Of a DNA stretch of 57,870 bases, positions 4,686-41,446 are shown one piece after another; within the stretch, counting starts at the first letter, position 1, and each line of letters begins with the position of its first letter. The position numbers and the translations under genes are program-made. Source of the DNA: a virus. The stretch is taken from the IMG/VR virus record IMGVR_UViG_3300049489_000130, positions 1-57,870 of that record; one strand, 5' to 3'. The notes beneath the pieces are model-generated. The model made no database searches and had not been told where the DNA came from. It was given only the letters and a program-made list of their open reading frames with translations.

Positions 4686-4982
4686 ATGACTGAAAGTCAA
4701 TACCAAGCACAGTTGGTAAAAAAATTGTACCGACTGTTTCCTGGTTGCTTCATTCAAAAAAACGATCCTAAGACAACGCAAGGGATTCCAGATCTTGTTA
4801 TATTCTTTGGTAAGTATTGGGCTATGCTTGAAGTTAAAATATCAGCAACAGCCAAAGAGCGGCCTAATCAACGTTATTATGTAGACATGCTCTCGGAGAT
4901 GTCGTTCGCCGCTTTTATATTTCCCGAGAATGAAGAGGACGTACTGTATGAACTTCAACTCGCATTACGCTCTGTCCGGTAA
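4686..4982 (+). CDS. VRR-NUC-type PD-(D/E)XK nuclease
   Basis: A 98-residue protein with the compact VRR-NUC / Holliday-resolvase-like core. GIPDLVIFFG near residue 36 gives the catalytic Asp, and LEVKIS near residue 53 gives the ExK pair. The N-terminal ESQYQAQLVKKL helix is typical. Stand-alone phage VRR-NUC proteins cut branched or flap DNA during replication and packaging. A GGAGG site precedes ATG 4686. The 3' end overlaps the next nuclease gene, and the two plus the large downstream gene form an operon. Confidence 0.8.
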   Translation: MTESQYQAQLVKKLYRLFPGCFIQKNDPKTTQGIPDLVIFFGKYWAMLEVKISATAKERPNQRYYVDMLSEMSFAAFIFPENEEDVLYELQLALRSVR

Positions 4983-5508
4983 ACACGCATTTCTATCGCC
5001 AAGCCAGTACCACTGGATCAATTATGATGAACACAAACTCGAAGCGCGTTTTGTTGCCGCCACTGCAGCTGCTAGGGGAACCGATCTACATGATCTAGCA
5101 CACCAGGCTATACGCTTGGGAATAAAGCTATCCAAAGCTAATAGAACTATATCTTCTTATGTGAATGACGCTATTGGATACAAGATGCAAAGCGAACAGA
5201 TGCTCTATTATTCGGACAACTGTTTTGGTACTGCTGACACTATATCTTTTAGACGAAACAAACTTCGTATACATGACTTGAAGACTGGTATCACTCCGTC
5301 TTCGGTTCATCAATTGGAAGTTTACGCTGCATTATTCTGTTTGGAGTATGACTTCTCACCTTTTGATATTGAGATAGAACTTCGCATTTATCAGAACGAT
5401 GAAGTCAGAATCTTTGATGGAGATCCTAACGTTATCCTGGACATCATGAACAAAATTGTCGAATTTGACATGCGTATTCAATTTATGCAGGAAAGGGGTG
5501 TCGGATGA
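4948..5508 (+). CDS. RecB/Cas4-like PD-(D/E)XK exonuclease
   Basis: A 186-residue protein with the RecB-family nuclease layout: an RGTDLHDLAH helix (residues 32-41) supplying the motif with His, then GTADTISFR, IHDLKTG with the catalytic D and K near residue 113, and the QLEVYAALF motif. Proteins like this process DNA ends in recombination or host DNA breakdown. ATG 4948 is preferred over ATG 4930 because AGAGGA lies just upstream of it. The stop overlaps the following polymerase-like gene by four bases (ATGA at 5505). Confidence 0.75.
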   Translation: MNFNSHYALSGKHAFLSPSQYHWINYDEHKLEARFVAATAAARGTDLHDLAHQAIRLGIKLSKANRTISSYVNDAIGYKMQSEQMLYYSDNCFGTADTISFRRNKLRIHDLKTGITPSSVHQLEVYAALFCLEYDFSPFDIEIELRIYQNDEVRIFDGDPNVILDIMNKIVEFDMRIQFMQERGVG

Positions 5509-8171
5509 TTATTGATGAAGATGAATATCTGGCGCACTATGGTATTCTCCGTAAGTCAGGGCGTTATCCTTGGGGGTCTGGTGATAATCAATCAGAGGTA
5601 AATAACGCGTTTCTGTCGTATGTTGCCGACCTTCGAGCTAAAGGTCTCAGTGAAGTAGAGATTGCTCGAGGGATTGGTGTTTCAACCACACAACTTCGTG
5701 CAGCAAAAGCCATTGCCAAGACTGAGCAAAAACAAACTCAGATCAACATGGCCCAGCGACTTAAGGATAAAGGTCTCTCGAATGTTGCCATTGGGCAACG
5801 TATGGGGATTCCGGATACGACAGTTGGAACACTTCTAAAACCAGGCGCCAAAGATAAAGCTGACGTCCTCCAAGGCATTACAACCATGCTCAAGGACCAA
5901 GTCGCCGAAAAGACCTATGTTGATGTTGGTAGTGGCGTAGAACAATCACTTAATATTAGCGATACAAAACTCAAGGTTGCTCTAGCTGCACTTAAAGAAG
6001 AAGGATACAACGTTTATTACGCTAAAGTCCTTCAGCTTGGTACCGGAATGGAAACGAGCTTGAAAGTTTTAGTTCCTCCTGGAACTACATATTCTGAGTT
6101 TTACAAGAACCGTGACAACATCAAACAGATAAATGCTTTTTCTGATGATGGTGGGCGAGACTTCAATCGAATCCAACCTCCTCTGCGAATCGATCCTAAA
6201 AGAGTTGATATCGTCTATGGAGATAAAGGTGGCGCTGCAGCCGACGGTGTTATTTATGTTCGTCCAGGCGTTCAAGATGTTTCGCTTGGTAAGAGTAGCT
6301 ACGCCCAGGTTCGTATTCAAGTAGGAGATGGTCATTACCTTAAAGGTATGGCTATGTATCGGGAAGATCTTCCTGATGGAGTAGATCTCCTCTTCAACAC
6401 GAACAAGTTGGATACTGGTAATAAGTTCGACGCTATGAAGAAAGTTAGCGACGATCCTGTTAATCCGTTTGGTTCAATGATCAAAAGACAACTTATTGAT
6501 CGAGACCCCAATGGTAAACCTGTAGTAACTTCAGCTATGAATATCGTTAACGAGGAGGGAGATTGGACCACTTGGTCTAAGAACCTTTCTTCTCAGATGC
6601 TTTCCAAGCAGAGCCCTCAGTTGGCTCGGGCTCAACTCAACATGGCTTATGAAAGAAGGGCTAGAGAGCTTGATAATATCTTAGCCCTTACGAACCCCGA
6701 AGTTCGTAAGAAGTTGTTGACAGAGTTCTCTGACGGCGCCGATTCTGCTGCTGTCCATTTGAAGGCTGCGCCTTTACCTGGGCAAGGGTCACATATTATC
6801 TTACCAATCAAATCAATCAAGCCTACCGAGATCTATGCTCCAAACTATCAGAATGGAGAAAGGGTTGTCCTGATCAGACACCCGCATGGTGGTACGTTTG
6901 AGATTCCAGAATTGACTGTCAACAACAATCATCGCGAATCTAAGCGTTTGTTGAAAGACGCTAAAGATGCTGTTGGTATTCACAGTAGCGTAGCAGAACG
7001 CCTTTCGGGCGCAGACTTCGATGGTGACACTGTTATTGTCATACCAAACTCTGGAAATAAAGTAAAGACCACACCAGCACTTGAAGGTTTGAAGAACTTT
7101 GATCCTCGGTCCGCATACCCAGCATATGAGGGTATGAAGCCGATATCACCTCGAACCAAACAACAAGAGATGGGTTATGCGTCCAACCTGATTACGGACA
7201 TGACTATCAAGCGAGCATCTACACAAGATCTTGCTAGAGCTGTTCGTTACTCCATGGTTGTTATTGACTCTGAGAAGCATAACTTAGACTATCGGCAGGC
7301 TGCACTTGATAACGGCATCAGGCAACTGAAAGAACGTTACCAAGGTAAGTCAAGAGGCGGTGCATCAACGCTGATCTCTAATGCGGGTAAAGAGTCTAAG
7401 GTTGCTATACCAGAGCGTAAAGCACGTACCTTTGCTAAGGGTGGACCAATAGATCCAAAGACGGGTAAGAAAGAATACGAACCAACTGGTGTTACCTATG
7501 TCAATTCAAAAGGGCAGACAGTAACCAAGACCGTTCGTGTTCCTAAACTATCAGTTGTGGATGATGTGTCTGTCTATTCATCAGGCACGCCAATGGAGCG
7601 CGTCTATGTAGAGCATGCGAATAAACTTAAGTCGTTGGCTAACTACGCAAGATTACAGTTAATTAATACCCCCCCTATCAAAGTATCGACCTCCGCAAAG
7701 AAAGTATACTCGAACGAGGTTGAGTCTTTGAACGCTAAATTAGCCCTCGCCATAAGAAACCGCCCCCTCGAGAGACAGGCACAGATTCTGGCTAATGCTG
7801 CTATCAAAGCTAAGGTTGCTGCTGATCCTGGAATGGATAGTGCTACTCTCAAGAAGATCAAGAATCAAGAGTTGGAGACCGCCCGTATTCGTACCGGCGC
7901 CAAGAAACAAAGGATTCAGATCTCCCCTGAAGAATGGGATGCTATTCAAGCCGGCGCTATTAGCGGAAGCCGTCTAGCCACCATACTGGACAATGCTGAT
8001 ATGGACATTGTTAGGGAGCTTGCTACACCACGTGATAGTGTTCTTATGACAACCGCCAAGACAAACAGAGCCAAGGCCATGCTTGCTGATGGTTACACAA
8101 GAGCCGAAGTTGCTGCACAATTGGGTGTGTCACTCTCTACTTTGGATGCTTCAACTAGTGAGGAAGGATAG
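5505..8171 (+). CDS. Putative single-chain DFDGD-type RNA polymerase with HYG tag and HTH repeats
   Basis: This 888-residue protein contains ERLSGADFDGDTVIVIP, with Asp504, Asp506 and Asp508 in the DFDGD loop that binds catalytic Mg in the double-psi beta-barrel of RNA polymerase beta' and of YonO-like single-chain polymerases. About 40 residues upstream, VLIRHPHGGTFEIPELTVNN parallels the RxPTLHR region that precedes the loop in beta'. Residues 35-125 hold two helix-turn-helix-like repeats (KGLSEVEIARGIGVS and KGLSNVAIGQRMGIP), and a third (GYTRAEVAAQLGVS) ends the protein. The N-terminus (EDEYLAHYGILRKSGRYPWG) is a tag also seen in phage structural proteins. It probably transcribes phage genes and may be carried in the virion. 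It is co-transcribed with two nucleases. The polymerase call rests on motifs only. Confidence 0.65.
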   Translation: MIIDEDEYLAHYGILRKSGRYPWGSGDNQSEVNNAFLSYVADLRAKGLSEVEIARGIGVSTTQLRAAKAIAKTEQKQTQINMAQRLKDKGLSNVAIGQRMGIPDTTVGTLLKPGAKDKADVLQGITTMLKDQVAEKTYVDVGSGVEQSLNISDTKLKVALAALKEEGYNVYYAKVLQLGTGMETSLKVLVPPGTTYSEFYKNRDNIKQINAFSDDGGRDFNRIQPPLRIDPKRVDIVYGDKGGAAADGVIYVRPGVQDVSLGKSSYAQVRIQVGDGHYLKGMAMYREDLPDGVDLLFNTNKLDTGNKFDAMKKVSDDPVNPFGSMIKRQLIDRDPNGKPVVTSAMNIVNEEGDWTTWSKNLSSQMLSKQSPQLARAQLNMAYERRARELDNILALTNPEVRKKLLTEFSDGADSAAVHLKAAPLPGQGSHIILPIKSIKPTEIYAPNYQNGERVVLIRHPHGGTFEIPELTVNNNHRESKRLLKDAKDAVGIHSSVAERLSGADFDGDTVIVIPNSGNKVKTTPALEGLKNFDPRSAYPAYEGMKPISPRTKQQEMGYASNLITDMTIKRASTQDLARAVRYSMVVIDSEKHNLDYRQAALDNGIRQLKERYQGKSRGGASTLISNAGKESKVAIPERKARTFAKGGPIDPKTGKKEYEPTGVTYVNSKGQTVTKTVRVPKLSVVDDVSVYSSGTPMERVYVEHANKLKSLANYARLQLINTPPIKVSTSAKKVYSNEVESLNAKLALAIRNRPLERQAQILANAAIKAKVAADPGMDSATLKKIKNQELETARIRTGAKKQRIQISPEEWDAIQAGAISGSRLATILDNADMDIVRELATPRDSVLMTTAKTNRAKAMLADGYTRAEVAAQLGVSLSTLDASTSEEG

Positions 8172-8176: not shown

Positions 8177-8434
8177 ATGATGGTTTCAATGCTCACTACT
8201 GTTGACAATCCCCATGATCCTTTTGACGCCTACGATCAGTGGTATAGTTGGGATCAAAGAGCTGGTTACAACACCCCCGCCTTCCTGGCAAGGGTCACTG
8301 TAACTTCAGATGTTTTGTCTGAAGCAGATCAGATACTAGCTATTGAACGTGCAATCGATGAGATTGTTTTTGAAAACGTTCTTGGTGTGTATAGAAAAGT
8401 TACAAAAGAATTTCCTGACGATTTAGAGTTTTAA
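8177..8434 (+). CDS. Conserved phage hypothetical protein
   Basis: An 85-residue acidic protein with the pattern DPFDAYDQWYSWDQRAGYNT then PAFLAR. I recognise this aromatic signature as common in small siphovirus proteins of unknown role. The second half is a predicted amphipathic helix. It follows the putative RNA polymerase by five bases and closes that operon. ATG 8177 or 8180 could be the start; the GAGGAAGGA site upstream fits both. Confidence 0.7.
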   Translation: MMVSMLTTVDNPHDPFDAYDQWYSWDQRAGYNTPAFLARVTVTSDVLSEADQILAIERAIDEIVFENVLGVYRKVTKEFPDDLEF

Positions 8435-9431: not shown

Positions 9432-10865
9432 ATGGCACTCATCACAGATCCCGACCTTTTGGACGATGGCCCAACCGACAACGGGACTACCGAAGTATTC
9501 ATCAACACCACAACCAAGACTATAAAGCTTACCACTACAGGGGCATTGTCTACTGACGGGGTTACCCTTAAAGCTCTTTATTCTTTCTTGAAGGAAGAGT
9601 GGAAGAACGATCCTCACACGAAGAATCTTGCGGCCTTCCCTTTCCCTCTCACCCCAATTACGGATGAATCATATGAGTTCATCGAAGGTTGGGACATGTT
9701 CAACGATGCTGCTCGGTATCTCATTCGAACTTCAGGGTGGACTGTTCGTAATACCTCAGGTCTTGTTACTCAACAGTGGGCGGGTATCATCGGACTTGGT
9801 AGCATCGAAGCGAACGACCAGTTGTATATCCAACAGTCTTCGGGTGGCGCAGCAACCAACATTGTTCTTACAGGGCAGGTAAACCAAGCGGTCCAAATCC
9901 TTAAGGACGACGATGGCGATGGTAACTTTGCCGAGGGTTCTGACTTTGATCGTCGTACTTACTTCACGCTTTTCGGTCGTGAGCAAGCACAGGTCTTTGG
10001 ACGCTCTAAACTCTCCGACATCGGTGTTGTTTCCATGGGCCCACAGGCTTATCGATTCCCAATCTCGACTGGTGCTGATCTCAAAGTAACGACTGCCGAC
10101 ACCGGAATCAAGGCTTCCGGGTCTGGTTATCCCGCGGATGTGGCTCCTTATTCCGGGATGAGTATTACTTATCATAGCACTCCGCAATCTAGAGCGATTG
10201 GTACTAATAACTATAACTTTGGGATCACTGTTGATGGAAACGGCCAGCCTCTCCAGAAGATTTATGAGTTCATTCAGTACGCACTTCGCCAGAACGTAGA
10301 CATCGCTGCTGGTGCTGCTAATGTTATCGGTAAGACTGCCGACCCACTCGCACGTTATGTTGGTGACACTTTCTATACTGTCGCTGCTTCCAACCCAGAA
10401 GGTGGTGGAACTGGAGTTTGGATCGCCAACTTTGCAACAGTCGACGTTAACTCTATTGTTCTTGTTGATAATACCGGCGCAGAGCGAACCTTCCCGTATA
10501 CCGCATCTCTTACCATCAACTTCAACGATAACCTTGACAATGATGCCGCTGCTGAGTACTGGGTGTATTTTACCACACTTCCTGGCGCTACAAATGACTT
10601 TGGCGAATCTGGCGCGGTTCTGGTTCAAGACGCGGATGATGTTGCTATGACCGGACTTGTTCCTGGTTCTTCAGTAACACATACGTTTGACTATGACGGT
10701 AATGTTCAGGGTGGTAGGACTGCCGGAACAGATGCTGGAATTACCGTAGTCGCGATTGGTCTGGCGACAGGGCAATATGTCCGTGCTACCGGGTCTATTC
10801 AGCGTTCTACTTCCAATTCAATCGCCCTTGTTGCACCATTGGAGCGCACATACGCCAACCCGTAA
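9432..10865 (+). CDS. Phage structural/appendage protein
   Basis: A 477-residue beta-rich protein opening with MALITDPDLLDDG, then an FINTTTKTIKL segment, and later SDIGVVSMGPQAYRFP. I recognise this type from uncultured and aquatic siphoviruses, where it sits with a large beta-helical protein and a small MAITFDG-type protein, as it does here. It is probably an exterior particle component (decoration or tail appendage). No enzymatic motif is visible, and the C-terminal 150 residues look like beta-sandwich repeats. GAAAGAAGAG before ATG 9432 is a weak ribosome site. Confidence 0.6.
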   Translation: MALITDPDLLDDGPTDNGTTEVFINTTTKTIKLTTTGALSTDGVTLKALYSFLKEEWKNDPHTKNLAAFPFPLTPITDESYEFIEGWDMFNDAARYLIRTSGWTVRNTSGLVTQQWAGIIGLGSIEANDQLYIQQSSGGAATNIVLTGQVNQAVQILKDDDGDGNFAEGSDFDRRTYFTLFGREQAQVFGRSKLSDIGVVSMGPQAYRFPISTGADLKVTTADTGIKASGSGYPADVAPYSGMSITYHSTPQSRAIGTNNYNFGITVDGNGQPLQKIYEFIQYALRQNVDIAAGAANVIGKTADPLARYVGDTFYTVAASNPEGGGTGVWIANFATVDVNSIVLVDNTGAERTFPYTASLTINFNDNLDNDAAAEYWVYFTTLPGATNDFGESGAVLVQDADDVAMTGLVPGSSVTHTFDYDGNVQGGRTAGTDAGITVVAIGLATGQYVRATGSIQRSTSNSIALVAPLERTYANP

Positions 10866-10875
10866 GAGGTGAATA

Positions 10876-13479
10876 ATGGCCACATTTACGATCACTACTG
10901 ATCAAAACTGGGACACTCTTGCTGGTAAAGCTGGCGGAGATACTTATAACATTAACAGTGGTGGTATTCTTCGTATCGATACAGATACGCGCTGGTGCGC
11001 CAACACATCTACAACTGTCGGTACCATTGGCCCAATGACCATAACCGCAGGAACCGTTCTCATGGACGGAACTAAGGTCCGGCTTATTCCTTATAACACC
11101 GGAACAGGTAACGTTCCTGCCGCTGGCACTACCATCACACAAGGCGGAGTGACTTCAGTATTCCTTTGCGCTATGTCTGCCGTAAACGCTGTGCCTACGG
11201 CTTATGGTTCCGCGATGCCCGCAACCGGCTTCATCAAAGTCAAGAATAAAACCGGCGGTGATTATGCTGCTGGAGCTTTGACTGGGATTGGAGCTTCGTC
11301 TACAGGTGCTGATGTTGTCGGATGGATTGAAATTGCTGCCGATGAGGTCGCCGCCAATGTTTTCACTATCCCTCGATTGGGGAAGTGGCAGATTACCGGC
11401 GAGTGGTATGCGGCGGGAACAACCAACGGATCTCGAGGTCAGACCATTCAGTTGCCAAACGGTACGGCTGGTGCTGGTCTCAGGACTCCTGGAGTCTGGA
11501 TTGAAACTTCCGCTGGATCCGACACGTATGAATTCTGGCCAGCCCTTTCCACGGCCAACGGGTTTGTTACTACAGCACATGGAACTGATGATCGTTCTCG
11601 TGTTGTACAAGACGCAACTGGTGGTCTGATTCGGATCGGATCCGATGGTACAAACAACATCGGCCATCTTCCTCCAACTGGGTGTAAGATTCGTATCCCA
11701 AATGTGATGCTCACCGGCAATACAACGGCGGCAAGACAGACCGCGGTTATCCCAAACTCTACAATAGCTACACGATTTGAGACTGTAACAACTTCCGCCG
11801 GTGTTATCGATATTAATAAAGCGGCTATTCACTGGTATCTCAATATTTCACAGGCATACAGCGTCAAGTTGAATTATTGTAGTGTCTTTGATGGGCCTCA
11901 TATTATTTCGGAAGTCGCTGCTCCTCTTGATCTAAATAATTTCAATATTGTTCCAGCTAATGCGCTTGATGCTCAGTCATTAACGCTTTCTTCATGTTTT
12001 GCGGGTGGGGCAATAACCGACTGTAAGTTTGGACGAGCTGGAACCATAGCGGCATCCGACCATATCGGGACTGTTTCTTTCTGCATTGGGCAGACTTGGA
12101 CCAGAGTTCATGCAATTGCATTTACAGTTAGAACAAACGCTACATATCCGAGATTCATCTTAACTTCATGTGATAATCAGGTTCTCGATGATTTTCGGGT
12201 TACTGGTTTGGCGCTTAACTTAGTGACCTGTTCGAACGTTAGTGTTTTGAACATGAAGTATTGCGATACATGTATCGCGCAAAGCACATCGAACCCCACG
12301 TATGCGTTGTTGATCGAGACGAGATGTAACGGAGTTACGGTTAACGGGTTTGGTCTTTATGGCTCAACTATCAACATGCATCCTTATTCTGGGTTGTTCA
12401 GTATAACAGCGAGTAAGAACATAAAGATCCGAAACATCGGAACTCCAGCAGCTCGATTCCAAATGGGTACAGCAAACGCTTCTGGCGTTATCGTCAACCA
12501 TGGCGGTAACAGCGACGGAATTGAAGTCAAAAGAGTTTATACTCAGAACACAAGAACAGGCATCTACACCACTCTGAACTCCGACACTAATGTTCTCTAT
12601 GAGAACGTATGGGGTGATGCTGGCGATGTTCCCAACGCTCAGTGTTTGAACATGCTTCAACGTGGAATGTACGCTGGAGGAACACCGACGGTTGCTTTTA
12701 CTTCAGTTTATGGGTCTATCTTTTGGGATGCGTTCATCAGTGCCACGCAAGGTCGCGTTGGATTGTTCGGAAACGAACCAACGGCATTACAGGCTTCTTA
12801 CGTCTACGACAAGACAATTAGCGGCGCCTCTGGGTGGACTTCAACAGGAGCACTTTCTCTTGTTGTTCTAAACAATACAGTCACGTACGAATGGCCCCAC
12901 TTCGTTAAAGGGTACACCTCGGGCGCTAACGTCGCTACCGTAGTCACAGGTACAAACGTAACTTTGTCTGGCAACGTTCATGGTAACCACACAATCACTT
13001 ACCAAATCGACAAAGGGTCTGGTTGGAACGGTTCGTGGATTCCGTTTACTCAGGCGAACATTGCTGCGGAAACTGGAATCAGCGCGACGGTCGGGTTTAA
13101 GTTGAAAATAAAAGTTGTTTGTAGTACAGCCGCGACTAATAACGCCATCACGGGAATTTATGCTACATTCACAACCGATTCGACGAGTCAACAAACGCAG
13201 TATCCACTTGATCTGAACACGTTGTCTCTTACCGGGCTTAAAAACCCAACCGAGATTCGGGTGTTCAATGCTGGAACTACCACGGAGATTGCAGGGCAAG
13301 AAGCAGTTACCTCTGGAACTTTCACTACATCTATTGACGCCGGAGCATATCCGTCCGTTGATATTTCTGTGATTTCTCTTGGGTATCAAAATACGCGATT
13401 GCTTTCTATTTCTATGGCAGGAGGAAACGTTTCAATCCCAGTACAGCAACAGATAGATCGACAGTATTGGAACGAGTGA
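10876..13479 (+). CDS. Large beta-helical appendage (tailspike-like) protein
   Basis: An 867-residue protein rich in Thr, Asn, Gly and Ala. Residues 1-60 form a capping region. Residues 250-560 show irregular short-strand repeats (for example VTVNGFGLYGSTINMHP, KNIKIRNIG, DGIEVKRVYTQNTRTGIY) typical of a right-handed beta-helix as in phage tailspikes. The C-terminal 300 residues look like stacked beta-sandwich domains. Such spikes bind or digest surface glycans; I see no definite catalytic triad, so binding is as likely as hydrolysis. AGAGGTG precedes ATG 10876. Confidence 0.6.
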   Translation: MATFTITTDQNWDTLAGKAGGDTYNINSGGILRIDTDTRWCANTSTTVGTIGPMTITAGTVLMDGTKVRLIPYNTGTGNVPAAGTTITQGGVTSVFLCAMSAVNAVPTAYGSAMPATGFIKVKNKTGGDYAAGALTGIGASSTGADVVGWIEIAADEVAANVFTIPRLGKWQITGEWYAAGTTNGSRGQTIQLPNGTAGAGLRTPGVWIETSAGSDTYEFWPALSTANGFVTTAHGTDDRSRVVQDATGGLIRIGSDGTNNIGHLPPTGCKIRIPNVMLTGNTTAARQTAVIPNSTIATRFETVTTSAGVIDINKAAIHWYLNISQAYSVKLNYCSVFDGPHIISEVAAPLDLNNFNIVPANALDAQSLTLSSCFAGGAITDCKFGRAGTIAASDHIGTVSFCIGQTWTRVHAIAFTVRTNATYPRFILTSCDNQVLDDFRVTGLALNLVTCSNVSVLNMKYCDTCIAQSTSNPTYALLIETRCNGVTVNGFGLYGSTINMHPYSGLFSITASKNIKIRNIGTPAARFQMGTANASGVIVNHGGNSDGIEVKRVYTQNTRTGIYTTLNSDTNVLYENVWGDAGDVPNAQCLNMLQRGMYAGGTPTVAFTSVYGSIFWDAFISATQGRVGLFGNEPTALQASYVYDKTISGASGWTSTGALSLVVLNNTVTYEWPHFVKGYTSGANVATVVTGTNVTLSGNVHGNHTITYQIDKGSGWNGSWIPFTQANIAAETGISATVGFKLKIKVVCSTAATNNAITGIYATFTTDSTSQQTQYPLDLNTLSLTGLKNPTEIRVFNAGTTTEIAGQEAVTSGTFTTSIDAGAYPSVDISVISLGYQNTRLLSISMAGGNVSIPVQQQIDRQYWNE

Positions 13480-15650: not shown

Positions 15651-15995
15651 ATGGAAGACAGCATTCTAATCAGTACGAAAAAAATCCTTGGTGTTCCCGA
15701 AGAGTATACCGTATTTGATTTGGACATTATAACTCATATCAATGCTGCTTTCTCAGTTTTAACACAACTCGGCCTTGGGCCTGAGATTGGATTTATGATT
15801 GAGGATGATACAGCTCTTTGGTCTGAGTTCACGTCGAACATCTCAGCTTTGAATCTTATAAGAACTTACGTCTTTCTCAAAGTTAAGTTATTGTTTGATC
15901 CCCCAACTACTTCATTTCTAATTGATGCTACAAATCGCCAAATCGAGCAATATGAGTGGCGTCTTAACGTACTTAGAGAATCGGAGCTAACATGA
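15651..15995 (+). CDS. Head-tail connector protein, gp6-like
   Basis: A 114-residue helical protein. DSILISTKKILGVPEEYTVF, then DLDIITHINAAFSVLTQLG, then YVFLKVKLLFDPP is the usual sequence of phage gp6-type adaptors that sit under the portal. These rings form the neck onto which head-closure and tail proteins dock. Here the gene lies before the terminase rather than after the capsid. GGAGG precedes ATG 15651, and the stop overlaps the next start by four bases. Confidence 0.75.
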   Translation: MEDSILISTKKILGVPEEYTVFDLDIITHINAAFSVLTQLGLGPEIGFMIEDDTALWSEFTSNISALNLIRTYVFLKVKLLFDPPTTSFLIDATNRQIEQYEWRLNVLRESELT

Positions 15996-16312
15996 TCATC
16001 GATTTAACCGATGACTTTCTCGAGCACTACGGCGTTAAAGGTCAGAAGTGGGGTGTTCGCCGAAAGTCAAAAGGACGAATTAGCGAACCTAATCCGAAAT
16101 TCATGTCGGATGACCAGCTTCGTAAAGCCATTAATCGAATGGAAATGCAAAAGAAGTACAAAGCATTAACCACTGAACAAAAAACTCATCCTGGTAAAAA
16201 GGTTGCTAACGATCTTCTTAAGAAAGCCGGGATGACTTTGTTTGGTGTTGCTGTTAGTACTGGCGCTAGTCTTGCTGTGAAAAAGGCTATGGGCGCTGTT
16301 GCAAAAACTTGA
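15992..16312 (+). CDS. Small HYG-tagged protein with C-terminal hydrophobic segment (1)
   Basis: A 106-residue basic protein. The N-terminus DDFLEHYGVKGQKWGVRR is a conserved phage tag often fused to minor head proteins. The middle is lysine-rich and residues 72-100 form a hydrophobic Gly/Ala segment. It has the same architecture as the protein at 18073, on the other side of the terminase, and a related tag starts the putative RNA polymerase at 5505. A virion or ejection protein is likely. The four-base overlap with the connector gene indicates coupled translation. Confidence 0.7.
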   Translation: MIIDLTDDFLEHYGVKGQKWGVRRKSKGRISEPNPKFMSDDQLRKAINRMEMQKKYKALTTEQKTHPGKKVANDLLKKAGMTLFGVAVSTGASLAVKKAMGAVAKT

Positions 16313-16330: not shown

Positions 16331-18076
16331 TTGGGATTATCAAATACCGCTACACCAAAGTACTACGGAGAATTTCGTGAGGCAGTTCTTAGGGGAGAGA
16401 TCCCCGTAAATCGTGAAGTCTCAATGGAGATGAATCGAATCGATGAATTGATCGCCAATCCAGACATTTACTACGACGACAAAGCTGTTGAAGGTTTCGT
16501 CAAGTACTGTGAGATGGAATTAACTCTCACTGATGGTGGAGATTTACATCTGTTACCTACGTTCAAACTCTGGGCTGAACAGTTATTCGGCTGGTTCTAC
16601 TTTGTTGAACGTAGCGTCTATCAACCAGGACCAGAAGGTTCTATTGGTGGGTTCGTAACAAAGATGATTAAAAAAAGGCTTACTACAAAGCAATATTTGA
16701 TTGTTGCTCGAGGTGCGGCCAAGTCTATGTATGCGGCTTGCATTCAAGCGTATTTTCTGAATGTAGACACCGCTACTACCCATCAGATCACAACCGCTCC
16801 GACAATGAAACAGGCCGACGAAGTTATGTCGCCTATCCGCACCGCGGTTACCAGAGCTAAGGGCCCTCTTTTCAAATTCCTGACTGAAGGAAGTCTTCAA
16901 AACACAACGGGCTCAAGAGCTAACCGCGTAAAGTTGGCGTCAACTAAAAAGGGCGTCGAAAACTTTCTTACTGGCTCTTTGCTTGAGATTCGCCCAATGG
17001 CAATCAATAAGCTTCAGGGTCTTCGCCCTAAAGTCTCGACCATTGACGAATGGCTTTCTGGCGATATTCGAGAAGACATTGTCGGCGCAGTCGAACAGGG
17101 CGCTTCAAAACTAGAAGATTATGTTATCGTCGCTATTAGTTCTGAGGGCACCGTTCGAAATGGTTCTGGCGACACCATCAAGATGGAATTAGCAAGCATT
17201 CTAAAAGGTGAATACGTTGCCCCACATGTTTCGATATGGCATTACAAACTTGACGAAATTGAGGAAGTGGCAGATCCTTCAAAGTGGATCAAAGCAAACC
17301 CAAATTTAGGACTGACTGTTACCTATGACGTTTATCATCTTGATGTTGAAAGAGCAGAGAAAGCGCCTGCTTCTCGAAATGATATTCTTGCTAAGCGTTT
17401 TGGTATTCCTATGGAGGGATACACTTACTTCTTCACGTATGAAGAAACCATTATACATCGACCGAGAGATTTCTGGGGTATGCCTTGTGCTCTTGGCGCC
17501 GACCTATCGCAAGGCGATGACTTCTGTGCATTCACGTTCCTTTTCCCGTTGCCGAATGGTTCATTCGGGGTAAAGACACGCAGTTATATCACCACTCTTA
17601 CGTTAATGCGACTCCCTGGTGCTATGAGAGCCAAATATGAAGACTTCATCGCAGAAGGAAGTCTACACGTCTTAGAAGGCACTGTGTTGGACATGATAGA
17701 GGTCTATGACGACCTTGATGCGTTCATATTAGAAGCCGAATACGACGTTCGCTGCCTTGGTTTCGACCCTTATAACGCAAAAGAGTTTGTTAGTCGTTGG
17801 GAAGCCGAAAACGGCCCATATGGTATCGAGAAGGTTATTCAAGGTGCAAAGACTGAATCTGTTCCTCTTGGCGAGCTTAAATTGTTCAGCGAACAAAGAA
17901 TGCTTATATTTGACCAGGAATTGATGTCTTTTGCTATGGGTAATGCAATTACTCTTGAAGACACAAATGGAAACCGTAAACTTCTTAAGAAACGAACCGA
18001 AGAGAAAATTGACAACGTGTCCGCTTTGATGGACGCTTATGTAGCATACAAAGCCAATAAGGATGGTTTCGAATGA
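16331..18076 (+). CDS. terL: Terminase large subunit
   Basis: A 581-residue packaging motor. Walker A is ARGAAKS near residue 127, Walker B is STIDEW near residue 236, and the C-terminal RNase-H-like nuclease domain carries GADLSQGDD near residue 391 and LGFDPYN near residue 475. It pumps DNA into the prohead and cuts it. The start is TTG 16331 after GGGAGGCGG; no ATG fits as well. It is flanked on both sides by HYG-tagged small proteins, and its 3' end overlaps the next gene by four bases. Confidence 0.9.
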   Translation: MGLSNTATPKYYGEFREAVLRGEIPVNREVSMEMNRIDELIANPDIYYDDKAVEGFVKYCEMELTLTDGGDLHLLPTFKLWAEQLFGWFYFVERSVYQPGPEGSIGGFVTKMIKKRLTTKQYLIVARGAAKSMYAACIQAYFLNVDTATTHQITTAPTMKQADEVMSPIRTAVTRAKGPLFKFLTEGSLQNTTGSRANRVKLASTKKGVENFLTGSLLEIRPMAINKLQGLRPKVSTIDEWLSGDIREDIVGAVEQGASKLEDYVIVAISSEGTVRNGSGDTIKMELASILKGEYVAPHVSIWHYKLDEIEEVADPSKWIKANPNLGLTVTYDVYHLDVERAEKAPASRNDILAKRFGIPMEGYTYFFTYEETIIHRPRDFWGMPCALGADLSQGDDFCAFTFLFPLPNGSFGVKTRSYITTLTLMRLPGAMRAKYEDFIAEGSLHVLEGTVLDMIEVYDDLDAFILEAEYDVRCLGFDPYNAKEFVSRWEAENGPYGIEKVIQGAKTESVPLGELKLFSEQRMLIFDQELMSFAMGNAITLEDTNGNRKLLKKRTEEKIDNVSALMDAYVAYKANKDGFE

Positions 18077-18498
18077 TTTACCAAGAGGATATTGACTTTC
18101 TCGAACATTATGGTGTTAAGGGGCAACGTTGGGGCGTTCGACGTGATCGTCGTGCTAACACACTTAAGAAGGTTGGGTCTGGTAAAGGATCAGGAACCGA
18201 GAAATTGAGGGCGTATACTACTGTTTCTCCTCTAGACGTTGCTAGAGGCAGAGGTTTTAAAGGAGCCGCCAAACTTAGAGGTGAGCGTCAGTTAAGTCGA
18301 AACGCCAGAATTAGAAAAGGTGAGGCTAGTGTACGCGATATACTTGTTTATTATGGTGGCACAAAACATCAGGATTTGATTCCTACTAACAAGAAGAAGA
18401 CAAATACTAAAGCTGCGTTAGGCGCATCTATAGCCGGTGTTGTTCTGGTAAGCATCGGCTCTAACGCCATTGGTGCCGCACTTAAAACAAATGCCTAA
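18073..18498 (+). CDS. Small HYG-tagged protein with C-terminal hydrophobic segment (2)
   Basis: A 141-residue, strongly basic protein. Its N-terminus IDFLEHYGVKGQRWGVRRDRR closely matches the tag of the protein at 15992. Residues 25-110 are Arg/Lys/Gly-rich, suited to DNA contact. The last 30 residues (AALGASIAGVVLVSIGSNAI) form one membrane-like helix. It is probably a minor virion protein, perhaps ejected with DNA (inference). Coupled to the terminase by the ATGA overlap. Confidence 0.7.
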   Translation: MIYQEDIDFLEHYGVKGQRWGVRRDRRANTLKKVGSGKGSGTEKLRAYTTVSPLDVARGRGFKGAAKLRGERQLSRNARIRKGEASVRDILVYYGGTKHQDLIPTNKKKTNTKAALGASIAGVVLVSIGSNAIGAALKTNA

Positions 18499-19752: not shown

Positions 19753-21729
19753 ATGAAAGCAGATTTTAGCGGTTACGCCACTAAGGCTGGACTCAAGTGC
19801 ACCGACGGTCGGACCATCATGCCTGATGCGTTCAAACACCAGGATAAGTCTCGAGTTCCGCTTGTGTGGCAGCACGGCCATACCAATCCCGAAAACGTTC
19901 TCGGCCACGCTATTCTTGAGAACCGTGATGACGGCGTTTACGCCTACGGTTTCTTCAATAGCACGGATAAGGCCGAGCACACTAAACAGCTCCTTGAGCA
20001 TGGTGACATCAGTATGTTGTCCATTTGGGCAAATAACCTGATCGAGCGTTCGGGTAACGTCCTTCATGGAGCTATCCGTGAGGTCAGCCTTGTACTGTCG
20101 GGTGCAAACCCAGGGGCAGTCATCGAAAATGTTTCTATTCGCCATTCCGATGGTGACACCGAAGTCGTGGACGATGAGGCGATTATCTACACCGGTCTCG
20201 AACTTGAGCACGGTGACTTGAAAGAAGATGACACCGACGATGAAGACAAAACAATCGTTGATGAAGTCGAGGAAATCAAGCACGCCGATGAAGACGCAGA
20301 CGAAGAGGATGAGGAAACCGTCCAGGACGTCTACGACTCTCTCACGGACAAGCAGAAGGACGTTGTGCATTATATGATTGGGGAAGCACTCCAGTCAGCA
20401 GACGCCGAAATGAAACAAAGCAGTACTGATGATACCAACAATACCGATCCGGAAGGAAAAGAAATGACGCACAACGTTTTCGAGACCAAGGGCGATGCCG
20501 AGGGTAAGACCGTGATCTCGCACGATGACATGAAGTCCATTGTTAACACTGCGGCCCGGACCGGTTCGCTCAAGCACGCCGTCGAAGAGTACGCTCTGGC
20601 GCACGGCATCACCAACATCGAAGTTCTCTTCCCTGAGGCTCAGCTTGTTGGTAACGTGCCTGAATGGGTCAAGCGTCGCACCGAATGGGTCGACACCCTT
20701 CTGGGCGCAACCCGTAAGAGCCCGTTCTCGCGGATCAAGACGATCAGTGCAGACATCACCTTCGAAGAGGCTCGCGCCAAGGGTTATGTTACCGGGACGT
20801 TGAAGAAGGAAGAGTTCTTCGGCGTTCAGACTCGTAGCACGACTCCGACGACCATCTACAAGAAGCAGGCGCTGGATCGTGACGACGTTCTCGATATCAC
20901 CGACTTCGATGTGGTTTCTTGGCTCAAGGCCGAGATGCGGCTTATGCTTGATGAGGAATTGGCTCGCGCCATCCTGATCGGTGACGGTCGTGACATTGCC
21001 AGCGAAGACAAGGTCAACGAGGGTAACATCCGTCCCATCGCTAAGGATCATGAGCTCTACACCACGACGGTTAGTGTTAACGTCACGGATGCAAACTCCT
21101 CGATGACCGAGGTTGTCGATGCTGTCATCCTGAACCGCCACAAGCTCAAGGGCACTGGTATGCCAACGTTCTTTACGACCGAGTATTGGATCGCACGATT
21201 CCTGCTCCTTCGTGATGCTGACGGTCACCGCATCTACAAGACCCTCGATGATCTGGCCGCGGAGCTCCGCGTTTCCTCGATCGTTGCTGTTGAGGCGATG
21301 ATGGATGACCCGACGATTGTCGGTATCATGGTGAACCCGGTTGACTATGTCATCGGCGCCGATAAGGGCGGAAACGTCAGCATGTTTGACGACTTCGACA
21401 TTGACTATAACAAGCAGAAGTATCTGATCGAGACCCGCGTTTCTGGCGCGTTGGTCAAGGTCAAGTCTGCTATGGTCATCAAGAGCGTTCCTGGAACTGA
21501 TGTTCTGGTCAGCCCGAATGAGCCGACCTTCAACACCACGACGGGTGTTCTGTCGATTGTCAACCAGACGGGTGTCATCTACAAGAATGGCGCAACCGTG
21601 GTTAACGCTGCCGGCTCGCCGTACGCTGCAATCGCATCTGGTGCTTCTATCACCATCGACGCAACGCCTGCTCCGGGTTACTACTTCGCCACGAGCGACA
21701 ACGACTCCTGGACTTTCACGCGCGACTGA
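19753..21729 (+). CDS. Prohead protease-scaffold-major capsid fusion protein
   Basis: A 658-residue fusion. Residues 1-135 match the S78 HK97 prohead protease (VPLVWQHGH with the catalytic His, DISMLSIWANN with the nucleophile Ser, REVSLVLSGANPGA). Residues 140-235 are acidic and helical (DEEDEETVQDVYDSL), a scaffold-like delta region. Residues 238-570 are the HK97-fold major capsid protein (VPEWVKRRTEWVDTLLGA, ARAILIGDGRD). Residues 580-658 add an Ig-like domain ending DSWTFTRD. An in-frame ATG at 20464 behind GGAAGGAAAAG could make the 421-residue capsid alone. The capsid part is visibly more G+C-rich than most of the genome, suggesting strong expression. The protease must release the mature subunit. 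Confidence 0.88.
   Translation: MKADFSGYATKAGLKCTDGRTIMPDAFKHQDKSRVPLVWQHGHTNPENVLGHAILENRDDGVYAYGFFNSTDKAEHTKQLLEHGDISMLSIWANNLIERSGNVLHGAIREVSLVLSGANPGAVIENVSIRHSDGDTEVVDDEAIIYTGLELEHGDLKEDDTDDEDKTIVDEVEEIKHADEDADEEDEETVQDVYDSLTDKQKDVVHYMIGEALQSADAEMKQSSTDDTNNTDPEGKEMTHNVFETKGDAEGKTVISHDDMKSIVNTAARTGSLKHAVEEYALAHGITNIEVLFPEAQLVGNVPEWVKRRTEWVDTLLGATRKSPFSRIKTISADITFEEARAKGYVTGTLKKEEFFGVQTRSTTPTTIYKKQALDRDDVLDITDFDVVSWLKAEMRLMLDEELARAILIGDGRDIASEDKVNEGNIRPIAKDHELYTTTVSVNVTDANSSMTEVVDAVILNRHKLKGTGMPTFFTTEYWIARFLLLRDADGHRIYKTLDDLAAELRVSSIVAVEAMMDDPTIVGIMVNPVDYVIGADKGGNVSMFDDFDIDYNKQKYLIETRVSGALVKVKSAMVIKSVPGTDVLVSPNEPTFNTTTGVLSIVNQTGVIYKNGATVVNAAGSPYAAIASGASITIDATPAPGYYFATSDNDSWTFTRD
20448..20466 (+). 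promoter_or_regulatory. Internal ribosome-binding site and in-frame ATG inside the capsid fusion
   Basis: A purine-rich GGAAGGAAAAG stretch lies about 5 bases before ATG 20464, in frame with the fusion gene and exactly between the acidic scaffold segment and the capsid domain. Initiation here would give free major capsid protein starting MTHNVFETKG, in excess over the full-length fusion. Confidence 0.55.
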
Positions 21730-22380: not shown

Positions 22381-23271
22381 ATGGCAGTTCTTACGTGGGA
22401 CAATGTCGGGCAGCGGTTCTATGAGACCGGTGTCGATCGCGGCGTCCTTTATATCCCTGATAACTTTGGTGTCTACAATGACGGTGTAGCTTGGAACGGT
22501 CTTACGAGCGTTACCGAGTCGCCTTCCGGCGCCGAGCCGAATGCGATGTATGCTGATAATATCAAGTACCTCAACCTCTTTTCGGTCGAGGAATTCAGCG
22601 CCACGCTTGAGGCCTATACTTACCCGGATGAGTTTGCTCTGTTCGACGGTTTCGTTTCGCCTTCGGCGGGCGTGACTATCGGTCAGCAGACGCGTGGAGT
22701 GTTTGGTCTTTCATATCGTACTCGTTTGGGTAATGATGTGGACCAGGACGACTATGGCTATAAGTTGCACCTCATCTACGGCTGCAAGGCATCTCCTTCG
22801 GAGCGTAACTACGCAACGATTAACGATTCGCCTGAGGCGATTTCGTTTAGTTGGGAGATTTCTACTACTCCGGTGGCATCGACTGGTAACAAGCCGACTT
22901 CCATCATCACGATTGATTCCACGAAGGTTCTCCCGGCTAACCTGGTGACCCTCGAGAACCTTCTGTATGGTACGGCCGGCTCCGAGCCTTCGCTTCCGCT
23001 TCCGGATGATGTTGTTGCCATCTTTGCTGGTGGTCAGACGGCAGTGACAACTCAGAACCCGACCTTTGTGTCGGCAACTGGTGTTATTACTATCCCGTCG
23101 GTTACTGGTGTCACGTATCGTCGCGCTGACACCAACGCCATCGTTACTGGCACTGTCACCATTTCTGGTGGCGCAGGAGCAAACCTTGTCATCACGGCCG
23201 CTCCGACGAACAGCACTTATGTGTTCACGCCGCAGAGCGACACCGATTGGTCGTTCACTCGCACCGCGTAA
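22381..23271 (+). CDS. Major tail tube protein with C-terminal Ig-like domain
   Basis: A 296-residue protein. Residues 1-215 are the tube domain: TWDNVGQRFYETGVDRGVLY, ATLEAYTYPDEFALFDG, FGLSYRTRLGNDV, ISFSWEISTTP. Residues 220-296 are an added Ig-like domain (NPTFVSATGVITIPS, ending TDWSFTRTA) similar to the one on the capsid fusion. The subunits stack into the tail tube, with the extra domain exposed outside. Codons are G+C-rich, as in the capsid. An AAAGGAG site precedes it and a strong terminator follows. A second tube-like protein lies at 30144. Confidence 0.88.
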   Translation: MAVLTWDNVGQRFYETGVDRGVLYIPDNFGVYNDGVAWNGLTSVTESPSGAEPNAMYADNIKYLNLFSVEEFSATLEAYTYPDEFALFDGFVSPSAGVTIGQQTRGVFGLSYRTRLGNDVDQDDYGYKLHLIYGCKASPSERNYATINDSPEAISFSWEISTTPVASTGNKPTSIITIDSTKVLPANLVTLENLLYGTAGSEPSLPLPDDVVAIFAGGQTAVTTQNPTFVSATGVITIPSVTGVTYRRADTNAIVTGTVTISGGAGANLVITAAPTNSTYVFTPQSDTDWSFTRTA

Positions 23272-23352: not shown

Positions 23353-23733
23353 GTGGCTCAGCAATTTCCTATGAACATTACTGCCGGCATTCCCTATGGG
23401 AAATTAGTTACTGTTACGTTACCTTCAGGTCGTGTTTGGTGGACTTCTGGATCGCAATTCGAGGTCCTGTTCCAACTTCGTGAAGGACCCGATGTCAATT
23501 CGGCGCTTATTTCCGATTTAAGGCAGTATTTAACAGTCACTTATACAGGACCGAATACCGTCAGCATTGCGTTTGACATGACAGGGGAAGACACTCGAAC
23601 TTTAACCAAATCCGGCTATTACGATATGATCATATCTGATGTTGGTGTTGTGGATAACAGAGCGTTTATCGTTTTGAGTGGTGTTGTATATCTCACATCG
23701 ACAGTCACCGATTCTGTGGAGGCTAGCACATGA
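23353..23733 (+). CDS. Tail-fibre-associated protein, baseplate-upper-like
   Basis: A 126-residue beta-rich protein. Start GTG 23353 is preferred because GGAG lies 7 bases upstream; an in-frame ATG at 23341 lacks a site. It has the pattern ITAGIPYGKLVTVTLPSGRV, FEVLFQLREG, KSGYYDMIISD. A distant relative is at 8599. Both precede collagen-like fibre genes and probably form the adaptor that attaches the fibre. The stop overlaps the fibre gene by four bases. Confidence 0.65.
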   Translation: MAQQFPMNITAGIPYGKLVTVTLPSGRVWWTSGSQFEVLFQLREGPDVNSALISDLRQYLTVTYTGPNTVSIAFDMTGEDTRTLTKSGYYDMIISDVGVVDNRAFIVLSGVVYLTSTVTDSVEAST

Positions 23734-26513
23734 GCGAACCATATGAGATTCTTGTTACTGTCGTCGATCTAGAGGGTAATAAAGGCGTCACTGGAGCTAC
23801 GGGTATTCAAGGTGTTCCGGGTCAGGTCACTAATGCGACACTCACGTCGGAAATGGCGCTGAAGGCGAATGTTGCCTCCCCGACTTTCACAGGCACACCG
23901 GCTGCTCCCACAGCGGCAACGAACACGAACACAACTCAGATTGCCACTACCGCACATGCACGCGCAAACCGAGCCGAGCTCGAGGCAGTCGATGCGCTCA
24001 AGGCGCCTCTTGCTTCCCCAACGCTGACTGGCACTCCGGCTGCTCCAACTGCAGCGACATCCACAAACACGACTCAGATTGCTACCACGGCGTATGTTCG
24101 TGCCAACCGTGCTGAGTTGGAGGCTGTAGATGCCGTAAAAGCACCTATAGTTTCTCCCGAGTTGACCGGTACTCCGGCTGCCCCAACACCATCTACCGCG
24201 GACAACACGACAAAAATTGCTACAACTGCTCATGTTCGCGCAAACCGGGCTGAGCTTCAGGTCGGGTTGGATCTAAAAACAACTATCGCCAACCCGAGTT
24301 TCACTGGTAACGTTGTCGTACCAGACGCTGTTGATGATGGTGCTATGGTGCAGAAGGTTCAGATGGAAGCCGCGATCGCAGAAGCGGACGCTGAACTCTA
24401 TCCGCATATTTCGCCTATTCCACCAGAAAATAACATTCCTGGTCGCCTCTGGATGAAGACGCCGGAAAATCACACGGCTATCAACATTGGGGGAGATAAT
24501 TTTGCCCCTCTCTGGCCCCCTACCGATAACCGTGCAGTGAATTCGAAAGCTGCTATTGAGTTATTAGAAGAAGCCGTCGGTTGGTGGGACGCAGCATATG
24601 CCGTTCCTGGAGAACAGTATGTCAAGAACCGCGGAAGTGGTGGAAGTGCTTTGGATGCTCGATATGGCACAACTGCTGGTAACACGATCATTCAGGATGG
24701 AAAAGCAGTTCTTCCCGGAACGGGTGGTTATTATCTTTCTGTACCCGACGATACCACCCTTGATATTACTGGTGATATTGAGATTGCAGTTCGCGCATCT
24801 GCCACTGATTGGACTCCAGGTTTAGTACAAACACTGGCTTCAAAACACGGAGCCTCTGGGCAACGTAGCTGGATATTGCGACTTGAGGTTGATGGTAGTC
24901 TTTCTTTTCATTACTCGGCAAATGGTTCCACTGTTACTGTCGTATACTCCATAGCCGTCTTACCTTTTTCAGACATACAAACTGGCTGGGTAAAACTGGT
25001 CTTTGATGCCAATAACGGTTCTGCTGGAACAACGACGAAGTTCTACTATGCATCTGATGAAGTAACAGAACCAACAGTCTGGACACAATTAGGGACGGAT
25101 AGAGTAACGGCAACGGCAATTAGTTTGTTTGCTTCTACGGCTACCGTATCGGTCGGCGCTACCTCAGAAGGGTTTTGGCCTTGGGTCGGCACAATCTACC
25201 GCGCCATAGTCCGTAACGGAATCGGCGGAACTACAGTGCTCGACGTAGACTGCTCAGTCGCAGCAGACCATGTGAGTACGTTCTACGCTCGTACCGGGCA
25301 ACTGGTGACTGTGAATCCGAGTGGTATTGACGCTTCAGAACCATTGTTTTTGCCGCATACGGGCGATAATTACCTGGCGTCAGTTGATGCAGAGTCAAGA
25401 ACTTCGGCAAATGGATTGTCGTTGACGTTTGCTGGCGATGCAGAAATGTTGGTGCGGTGCTCGTACCGAAACTGGCAAACGTCAAATGTCGAAACAGCAA
25501 TCTGGGCGCAGTTCGGAAGCATCTATAACCGATCGGCTGGACAGATTCATATTTCAATCAACACGAGCGGTGGCAGCGGAAGCGCCTCCATGACGGGTGT
25601 GAATCCATTTAACGCTGACCAGATCGTATGGTTGCGCTGGCGACGTATTGCATCCAGTGGCGTAACCACCTTGGACTGGGCGCCTAATTCTGTGCAGCCG
25701 CCATCGACAGGGTGGGTAAACATAATCAACACCACGTTCCGTGCTGGGGAACAGTTGGTTTCGGTGGTTGACATTGGTGTTGGTAGTTCTGGTATTGGTG
25801 CCGTCACAGACATGAACGGAGACATATATCGCACCATCATCCGCAACGGCATTGACGGCCCCACGGTCTTCGACTTTAACGCCGCCACCGACATTACCTC
25901 ATCTGCTGCAACTTCATTCACAGCAACAACCGGCCAAACCGTTACAGTCAACCGAGCAACAACTGGTCGCAAAACAACTCTAGTAACTCGCCCAGTTTGG
26001 CTCTTAGGTTCAGATGATCATTTAGAAGTTCTTGATAATCCTCTCATTAACTTCGACGTGACAAAATCATTCAGCGTTCTTATTATTTGTAAAATGTGGC
26101 ATTCTGCTAACTACTCCTCATTAATCTCAAAAAGACTAAGTGCAACAAACACAAACTATGGTTGGGCAATTCTTACGCCTAATAGTTTACGTCTTTTGGT
26201 TGAGTATAGAGGTGGTGGCGTTACTGATGACTGGGCTGCAACCTTACCCAGCCCTTCGTTTTCAGCAGGTCAAAATATTCTAGCGGCTTTAATACACAGT
26301 TCATCTGGGTCTAACAAAACCGTAGTAAATAATGTAGAAACAGTTTCTACAGATGCCTTAATAGACATGACGAATACTGAATCTCTCCTCATTGGAAAAG
26401 GTAATACTGGTGGAGATGGTTTTAATTTTGAGGTATATGCTGCAGCTATATTTGATCGAGCCCTAACAACAGAAGAAATTGCACTGATCAACAACTTCTA
26501 CGGGACGGTCTAA
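23730..26513 (+). CDS. Tail fibre protein 1, collagen-like and LamG-like modules
   Basis: A 927-residue receptor-binding candidate. Residues 1-30 include a short collagen-like GATGIQGVPG. Residues 40-190 are four repeats of the fibre unit PxxTGTPAAPT followed by TNTTQIATTA and ANRAELEAVDALKAP. A conserved connector follows (FAPLWPPTDNRAV, EAVGWWDAAYAVPGEQYV). Residues 325-927 contain three jelly-roll LamG/concanavalin-like modules separated by TVNPSGIDA- and VNRATTGRKT-type linkers. LamG-like modules often bind sugars. The neighbouring fibre at 26567 shares the whole N-terminal half and the last module. Confidence 0.82.
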   Translation: MSEPYEILVTVVDLEGNKGVTGATGIQGVPGQVTNATLTSEMALKANVASPTFTGTPAAPTAATNTNTTQIATTAHARANRAELEAVDALKAPLASPTLTGTPAAPTAATSTNTTQIATTAYVRANRAELEAVDAVKAPIVSPELTGTPAAPTPSTADNTTKIATTAHVRANRAELQVGLDLKTTIANPSFTGNVVVPDAVDDGAMVQKVQMEAAIAEADAELYPHISPIPPENNIPGRLWMKTPENHTAINIGGDNFAPLWPPTDNRAVNSKAAIELLEEAVGWWDAAYAVPGEQYVKNRGSGGSALDARYGTTAGNTIIQDGKAVLPGTGGYYLSVPDDTTLDITGDIEIAVRASATDWTPGLVQTLASKHGASGQRSWILRLEVDGSLSFHYSANGSTVTVVYSIAVLPFSDIQTGWVKLVFDANNGSAGTTTKFYYASDEVTEPTVWTQLGTDRVTATAISLFASTATVSVGATSEGFWPWVGTIYRAIVRNGIGGTTVLDVDCSVAADHVSTFYARTGQLVTVNPSGIDASEPLFLPHTGDNYLASVDAESRTSANGLSLTFAGDAEMLVRCSYRNWQTSNVETAIWAQFGSIYNRSAGQIHISINTSGGSGSASMTGVNPFNADQIVWLRWRRIASSGVTTLDWAPNSVQPPSTGWVNIINTTFRAGEQLVSVVDIGVGSSGIGAVTDMNGDIYRTIIRNGIDGPTVFDFNAATDITSSAATSFTATTGQTVTVNRATTGRKTTLVTRPVWLLGSDDHLEVLDNPLINFDVTKSFSVLIICKMWHSANYSSLISKRLSATNTNYGWAILTPNSLRLLVEYRGGGVTDDWAATLPSPSFSAGQNILAALIHSSSGSNKTVVNNVETVSTDALIDMTNTESLLIGKGNTGGDGFNFEVYAAAIFDRALTTEEIALINNFYGTV

Positions 26514-30133: not shown

Positions 30134-30143
30134 AAGGACTATC

Positions 30144-40693: not shown

Positions 40694-40698
40694 GTCTC

Positions 40699-40728
40699 TC
40701 GCAAAGCGAACATCGCTTATAATGAGAA
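40699..40728 (+). promoter_or_regulatory. Repeated phage promoter copy 1
   Basis: TCGCA (40699-40703), ACATCG (40710-40715) and TATAAT (40718-40723) followed by GAGAA. It drives the gene at 40748 with a short leader containing CCGAAAGG as ribosome site. It is one of eight copies with identical spacing. Confidence 0.85.
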
Positions 40729-40747
40729 CCTACCGAAAGGATTTATA

Positions 40748-41110: not shown

Positions 41111-41180
41111 TCGCTATTTCTACAAATGGTATAAATTTTTGTTTCTCTGAAAAACCCCGCGGGGTAATTTTGGCAAAAAG

Positions 41181-41210: not shown

Positions 41211-41232
41211 TCATCTACCGAAAGGAGCCATC

Positions 41233-41439: not shown

Positions 41440-41446
41440 TGATCAA

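Follow-up and report, generated by a model that had tools for sequence, protein, structure and literature searches.

In this study, a stretch of viral DNA of 57,870 nucleotides (nt), covering positions 1 to 57,870 of the IMG/VR record IMGVR_UViG_3300049489_000130 and hereafter called the window, was analysed around one forward-strand gene (5505-8171) for a protein of 888 amino acids (aa). The gene is real and conserved, and its product is almost certainly a two-barrel RNA polymerase (RNAP), very probably active on DNA templates, as judged from profiles, alignment and a structural model. On these grounds the phage enzyme is a one-piece RNAP and a distant relative of cellular RNAP. Our computation yielded its fold class, invariant catalytic residues, three helix-turn-helix (HTH) units, a promoter-like motif linked to the RNAP across related phages, and an N-terminal tag shared with proteins encoded beside the terminase. 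We lean towards a scheme in which this single-chain DNA-dependent RNAP would use promoters of its own, be synthesized late, be packaged through the tag, and carry out early transcription in the next infection.

Family, catalytic loop and fold of the polymerase

The open reading frame (ORF) starts with ATG, and the profile of PHROG 4291, which bears the name 'RNA-dependent RNA polymerase', covers residues 4-886 with 1268.6 bits, which amounts to the full length of the protein. With tblastn, relatives were noticed in 250 of 50,697 phage records, chiefly from Arthrobacter, Gordonia and Streptomyces phages and also from Lactococcus and Faecalibacterium phages, where the usual annotation is 'helix-turn-helix DNA binding domain protein'. 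Relatives also occur in at least 499 IMG/VR stretches and at least 153 stretches of prokaryote genomes, and many Bacillota prophages encode a PHROG 4291 RNAP. As the family is already in databases, and PHROGs and several GenBank records label it as RNA polymerase, the enzyme itself is no new discovery. In correction of the original prediction, the protein is no singleton. A description of its HTH-bearing architecture, of the promoter conserved among relatives or of the link to the tag did not turn up in the papers searched, most subscription papers lying outside the search. The features of the gene, all on the forward strand, are as follows.

5505-8171, forward: single-chain two-barrel RNAP, PHROG 4291, 888 aa, ATG start (profile, alignment, model)
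5610-5702, forward: HTH 1, residues ~36-66 (PHROG match, model)
5736-5840, forward: HTH 2, residues ~78-112 (Pfam, PHROG, model)
6204-6554, forward: candidate first double-psi barrel, beta-like, residues ~234-350, with invariant K280-G281 (borders inferred from predicted strands)
6786-7046, forward: candidate second double-psi barrel, beta'-like, residues ~428-514 (phrog_8308 match at 437-515, model, Foldseek)
7014-7028, forward: catalytic DFDGD loop, residues 504-508 (invariant in 58 sequences)
7149-7280, forward: candidate bridge-helix region, residues 549-592 (model helices 549-568 and 573-592; weak RNA-dependent RNA polymerase match at 495-593)
8052-8156, forward: HTH 3, C-terminal, residues 850-884 (Pfam, model)

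The DFDGD loop (ADFDGDTVIVIP, residues 503-514) and the block upstream of it (IRHPHGGTFEIPE, residues ~457-469), on which the original prediction was built, both fall where the family is conserved best. D504, F505, D506, G507 and D508 are identical in all 58 aligned homologues, as are K280-G281, R458, H461 and many positions within 556-592. The three predicted HTH segments were recovered as well, two near the N-terminus and one at the C-terminus. The C-terminal one matches HTH_23 (858-880, E 4e-7, above the Pfam cut-off), the N-terminal region matches HTH_38 (83-112, E 2e-5, slightly below it) and PHROG DNA-binding families match residues 40-108, with helices of the AlphaFold model standing at 36-45/50-57, 93-100/104-111 and 850-861/866-873/877-884.

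The AlphaFold2 model of the RNAP reached a mean local confidence (pLDDT) of 81.3 and a predicted template modelling score (pTM) of 0.63, with residues 1-34 disordered. In it the DFDGD loop follows helix 494-499 and precedes strand 509-514, where the candidate beta'-type barrel ends. The closest solved fold in Foldseek was QDE-1 (E 5e-9), then QDE-1 of Thielavia, followed by gp64/gp62 of the P23-45-type Thermus phages (E 5e-7 for gp64; the gp62 is that of P74-26) and RDR2, with a weak match to gp66 of the crAss-like phage phi14:2 (E 3.5e-3). The probability assigned to QDE-1 and the P23-45-type RNAPs was 1.00 over nearly the whole chain at a template modelling (TM) score of about 0.3, a low score, so that the claim concerns the fold class and not a detailed model. 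The single-chain double-psi-barrel fold proposed at the outset thus agrees with the model. The kinship with YonO and crAss-like enzymes proposed along with it was borne out in part: the profile of the YonO family, phrog_8308 (membership of YonO checked), matches residues 437-515 only (E 0.0016), whereas QDE-1 and the P23-45-type enzymes are closer. A full-length phrog_8308 match was not obtained, hhalign of the RNAP against a single YonO sequence gave no significant match, and a single-sequence search of the PDB gave no useful one. The Pfam RNAP beta' model PF04997 had zero matches within the window, because the family is too diverged. That DFDGD might be a chance occurrence or belong to some other kind of protein was dropped on account of the full-length PHROG 4291 match.

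A promoter-like motif accompanying the polymerase

An expectation-maximization motif search in the intergenic gaps of the window gave mostly ribosome-binding sites at width 12 and the promoter motif at longer widths. The gaps share this motif, and on inspection another block emerged that keeps a constant distance from it, TCGCA-N15-TATAATGAGAAC. The fixed-spacing form TCGCA-N15-TATAATGAGAA has eight copies, on the forward strand only; a position-weight matrix likewise found eight copies, all forward, between 40.69 and 57.46 kb, and none on the reverse strand, against a mean of 0.1 matches with column-shuffled matrices. When each site was left out in turn, it still ranked among the top 8 of its strand. 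Five of the eight sites lie 29-33 nt upstream of a predicted start codon, and the late region holds no copy above the matrix threshold.

40698-40729, forward: promoter-like site 1, CTCGCA-N14-TATAATGAGAAC, 30 nt before ORF 40748
41180-41211, forward: promoter-like site 2, 33 nt before ORF 41233
41483-41514, forward: promoter-like site 3, from the matrix
41647-41678, forward: promoter-like site 4, from the matrix
43547-43578, forward: promoter-like site 5, 32 nt before ORF 43599
44333-44364, forward: promoter-like site 6, 29 nt before ORF 44382
55862-55893, forward: promoter-like site 7, 29 nt before ORF 55911
57421-57452, forward: promoter-like site 8, 75 nt before ORF 57516

Among the eight sites, a -35 box (TTGACA 16-18 nt before TATAAT) is not conserved, the upstream block being TCGCA, 15 nt before. 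A sigma-70 scan of the window gave promoter counts not above the shuffled expectation and picked up only one of the eight sites (43543-43572). We infer that the interval of 40-57 kb is the early region. Two long intervals, 41440-42323 and 52678-53300, have no clear gene; the former contains sites 3 and 4 and may therefore hide small transcripts or short ORFs. Genes for tRNA Lys, Leu and Ile occupy 54753-55862, and site 7 directly follows the last of them.

Related motifs in several copies were found by a gapped-word search without prior knowledge in the phages Niktson (Arthrobacter), ReqiPoco6 (Rhodococcus), Miek (Streptomyces) and 1706 (Lactococcus). Allowing two mismatches at most, 10 of 14 RNAP-carrying phage genomes hold 5-29 forward and zero reverse copies, 113 in total, compared with 6 matches of a reversed control pattern. 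Phages of Streptomyces, Arthrobacter, Gordonia and Rhodococcus that carry the RNAP repeat this architecture. The remaining four, from Curtobacterium, Lactococcus and Faecalibacterium hosts, show diverged versions: TATAGTAGAACCCC in Curtobacterium phage Yotsuba, T(C/T)(G/A)CA-N4-TTACA-N5-TATAGTAGA in Lactococcus phage 1706, TTTTACA-N4-CTATAATGA in P078 and CGCGA...CA-N6-CTTTATGGA in FP_oengus. In 2.9 million IMG/VR viral contigs, the exact pattern TCGCA-N4-TTACA-N5-TATAATGAGA occurs in at least 120 stretches and the reversed pattern in 0. Among motif-bearing contigs at least about 42 kb long, 21 of 22 encode the RNAP, and all 22 carry the tag DUF7211 described below.

Sequence conservation extends 3' of TATAAT, with GAGACCCCTA in many actinophages. 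This downstream conservation and the lack of a conserved -35 box at normal spacing would set the motif apart from host sigma-70 promoters and bring it closer to those of phage-encoded polymerases. From its sequence and distribution, the motif is likely the cognate promoter of the phage RNAP, and we consider it probable that this enzyme reads it. That the HTH segments recognize the phage's own promoters, as first proposed, gains indirect support in that the motif tracks the RNAP; recognition by the HTHs themselves is our supposition.

The N-terminal tag and the genes around the terminase

The model leaves the N-terminus of the RNAP (HYG..R.SGRYPWGSG) disordered, although none of the 58 homologues departs from HYG, SGR and GS; this part is therefore retained for something besides the polymerase fold. 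A similar N-terminus, FLEHYGVKGQ(K/R)WGVRR, begins both small proteins that flank the terminase in the window. Pfam names the terminase-side tag DUF7211, a domain of unknown function.

5529-5582, forward: RNAP N-terminal tag, residues 9-26 (LAHYGILRKSGRYPWGSG), candidate virion-packaging tag related to DUF7211 (alignment, model, tag profile)
15992-16312, forward: small protein with N-terminal FLEHYGVKGQKWGVRR tag, just before the terminase (tag profile)
16331-18076, forward: terminase large subunit (Pfam match)
18073-18498, forward: small protein with N-terminal FLEHYGVKGQRWGVRR tag, just after the terminase (tag profile)
19753-21729, forward: head maturation protease (capsid-protease fusion by name in relatives), candidate tag reader

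In the window, a profile built from 162 tags of other loci matched only the RNAP N-terminus (E 0.0035) besides both terminase-flanking proteins (E 3e-15 and 2e-13), the best further match having E 2.1. An hhalign comparison of the two tag sets gave P 6.5e-8, which carries little weight as both sets were anchored on HYG. Tags of the RNAP type (e.g. LAHYGLPRRSGRYKWGSG) also occur on unrelated, non-polymerase proteins beside the terminase in L010/L190, with two more in L192. Relatives harbor 1-9 tagged proteins per genome, clustered from lysin/HNH to portal, and some bear acetyltransferase (GNAT) or 2'-5' RNA ligase/LigT (2H phosphoesterase) domains, as might be expected of proteins injected for counter-defence or host takeover. 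In this phage clade DUF7211-tagged proteins form an island around the terminase, in the window and also in L175-L183 and L185. Among 250 genomes from a single bacterial family, the same six contain DUF7211 and the RNAP, and the capsid-protease gene is present in those six plus one broken copy. This comparison of sequences shows a tight linkage of tag and RNAP within the phage clade and does not tell a functional link from shared ancestry. GenBank lists orf75 (the RNAP) and orf7 (two tags) of Lactococcus phage 1706 both as 'structural protein', labels that reportedly come from particle proteomics. By analogy with these cases, we think the presence of the RNAP in the virion somewhat favoured.

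As to the surrounding genes, the RNAP start is overlapped by 4 nt by a conserved exonuclease gene, and a small conserved gene follows immediately.

4930-5508, forward: exonuclease, PHROG 3953 (Cas4/RecB-like by name in relatives), conserved neighbour
8177-8434, forward: small conserved gene, PHROG 4303, immediately after the RNAP (profile, neighbourhood in relatives)

Between the RNAP and the terminase region, 9432-13479 holds two large ORFs (477 and 867 aa) with no clear family matches. Paralogous major tail proteins, both PHROG 2645, are encoded at 22381-23271 and 30096-30965, with two long tail-fibre-like proteins between them (23730-26513 and 26567-28729). A primase/DNA polymerase protein of 1249 aa (47586-51335; PHROG 4210, 1927 bits) is kept in the same phages.

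The proposed scheme, its rivals and known systems

The RNAP gene stands far from most promoter-like sites and immediately before the late/structural region. Late synthesis, packaging and early use are proposed because the gene is remote from the promoters and near the late region, and because its tag is related to that of proteins encoded between terminase and portal. The three HTH units would place the RNAP on a phage-specific promoter made of CGCA, (T)TACA and TATAATGAGA blocks at fixed spacing, with transcription expected to start just downstream of TATAATGA. Made late in infection, the enzyme would be packaged into the virion through its N-terminal tag and delivered together with the DNA; in the next infection it would then transcribe the early genes, needing no sigma factor of the host. 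In this scheme catalysis, the reading of the motif by the phage rather than the host RNAP, packaging and timing are what we infer. The chances seem evenly balanced for a broader proposal, namely that a widespread clade of Gram-positive siphophages begins infection with a virion-carried two-barrel RNAP, that the tag also loads acetyltransferases and 2H phosphoesterases, and that the HTH-read, sigma-free promoter is conserved across two host phyla.

Several observations weigh against the scheme. With a pTM of 0.63 and low whole-chain TM scores, the domain packing of the model is uncertain; Pfam DUF7211 (PF23847) was not called on the RNAP at E<=1; and the 1706 labels are only suggestive because the untagged small proteins orf62 and orf71 are labelled likewise. 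One motif-bearing contig of 45.7 kb (G273, the contig of L274) has DUF7211 tags and lacks the RNAP; it is either incomplete or stems from a phage in which the enzyme was lost or exchanged for another. Moreover, motif, tag, RNAP and capsid-protease gene mark one phage clade, and their co-occurrence is partly common descent. TATAAT is also an ideal host -10 box, and host RNAP could use the sites that bear it. It is thus conceivable, though in our view quite unlikely, that host RNAP with sigmaA, perhaps with a phage activator, reads the motif while the phage RNAP serves other, late genes in the manner of YonO, which transcribes late SPbeta genes (PMC5467207). The consensus -10 box and the position of the RNAP gene near the late region agree with this, but no -35 box is conserved at 16-18 nt, the TCGCA and TTACA blocks are spaced identically in phages whose hosts belong to two phyla, conservation persists downstream of the -10 box, and the late region is devoid of copies above threshold.

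A closer variant retains the enzyme and the promoters and has the RNAP made in the infected cell, the tag serving, for example, to tether it to a host or phage partner. Phage P23-45 encodes both virion and non-virion two-barrel RNAPs (PMC10770324), the gene in the window is grouped with exonuclease and helicase genes outside the head module, and the case for packaging consists of database labels and an analogy of tags. We nevertheless regard this variant as rather unlikely, given that the gene adjoins the late region away from the motif copies, that orf75 of 1706 is labelled a structural protein, and that the tag is common to proteins of the head-packaging interval. The names in PHROG and RefSeq would make the protein an RNA-dependent RNA polymerase; QDE-1, its closest solved fold, uses both RNA and DNA templates, and there is a weak Pfam match to such enzymes (E 0.019), from which the name is probably derived. 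A phage genome of double-stranded DNA, three HTHs of DNA-binding type and the co-travelling DNA promoter motif make this highly improbable.

Among the relatives of cellular RNAP, the single-chain two-barrel polymerases are the simplest. The phage group considered here is large and culturable, and it combines such an enzyme with a predicted promoter and a predicted delivery tag. If the scheme holds, actinobacteria and Bacillota would gain a promoter system that works without sigma factors, phage capsids would have a cargo tag of general use, and the phage would start its own gene expression upon entry.

Compared with known systems, the nearest are the other PHROG 4291 proteins (1706 orf75, Streptomyces Bilo gp57, Rhodococcus ReqiPoco6 gp106 and the FP_oengus 'putative RNA polymerase'), which belong to the same family over the full length at 38-63% identity and share the tag, DFDGD, the HTHs and similar gene neighbours; they are annotated, no study of them was found, and the promoter motif and tag are absent from the papers searched. 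The cellular QDE-1/RDR polymerases are likewise single chains with a DxDGD loop, but they are eukaryotic RNA silencing enzymes with about 10% identity to the window RNAP, and we know of no HTHs in them. Gp66 of phi14:2 is a two-barrel single-chain virion RNAP with 2166 residues in the solved chain and, to our knowledge, no HTHs reported. The P23-45 enzymes gp64 (non-virion) and gp96 (virion) are also single-chain, two-barrel RNAPs of a siphovirus; the P23-45-type gp64 shows about 12-13% identity to the window RNAP in structural alignment, with no sequence match in PDB searches, and gp96 forms a fusion with the tape measure protein, in contrast to the window RNAP, which is separate and bears a short tag. 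In P23-45 a two-barrel RNAP is carried in the particle, and early genes have specific promoters (PMC10770324). YonO of SPbeta, a single-chain phage RNAP of ~100 kDa like that of the window, serves late genes; it is proven active, its promoter sequence not having been determined in that work (PMC5467207). DUF7211 (PF23847), finally, is an HYG-type tag of 25 residues, often present several times per genome beside the terminase in the same phages, from which the RNAP tag diverges by having SGRYPWGSG in place of GMKWG.

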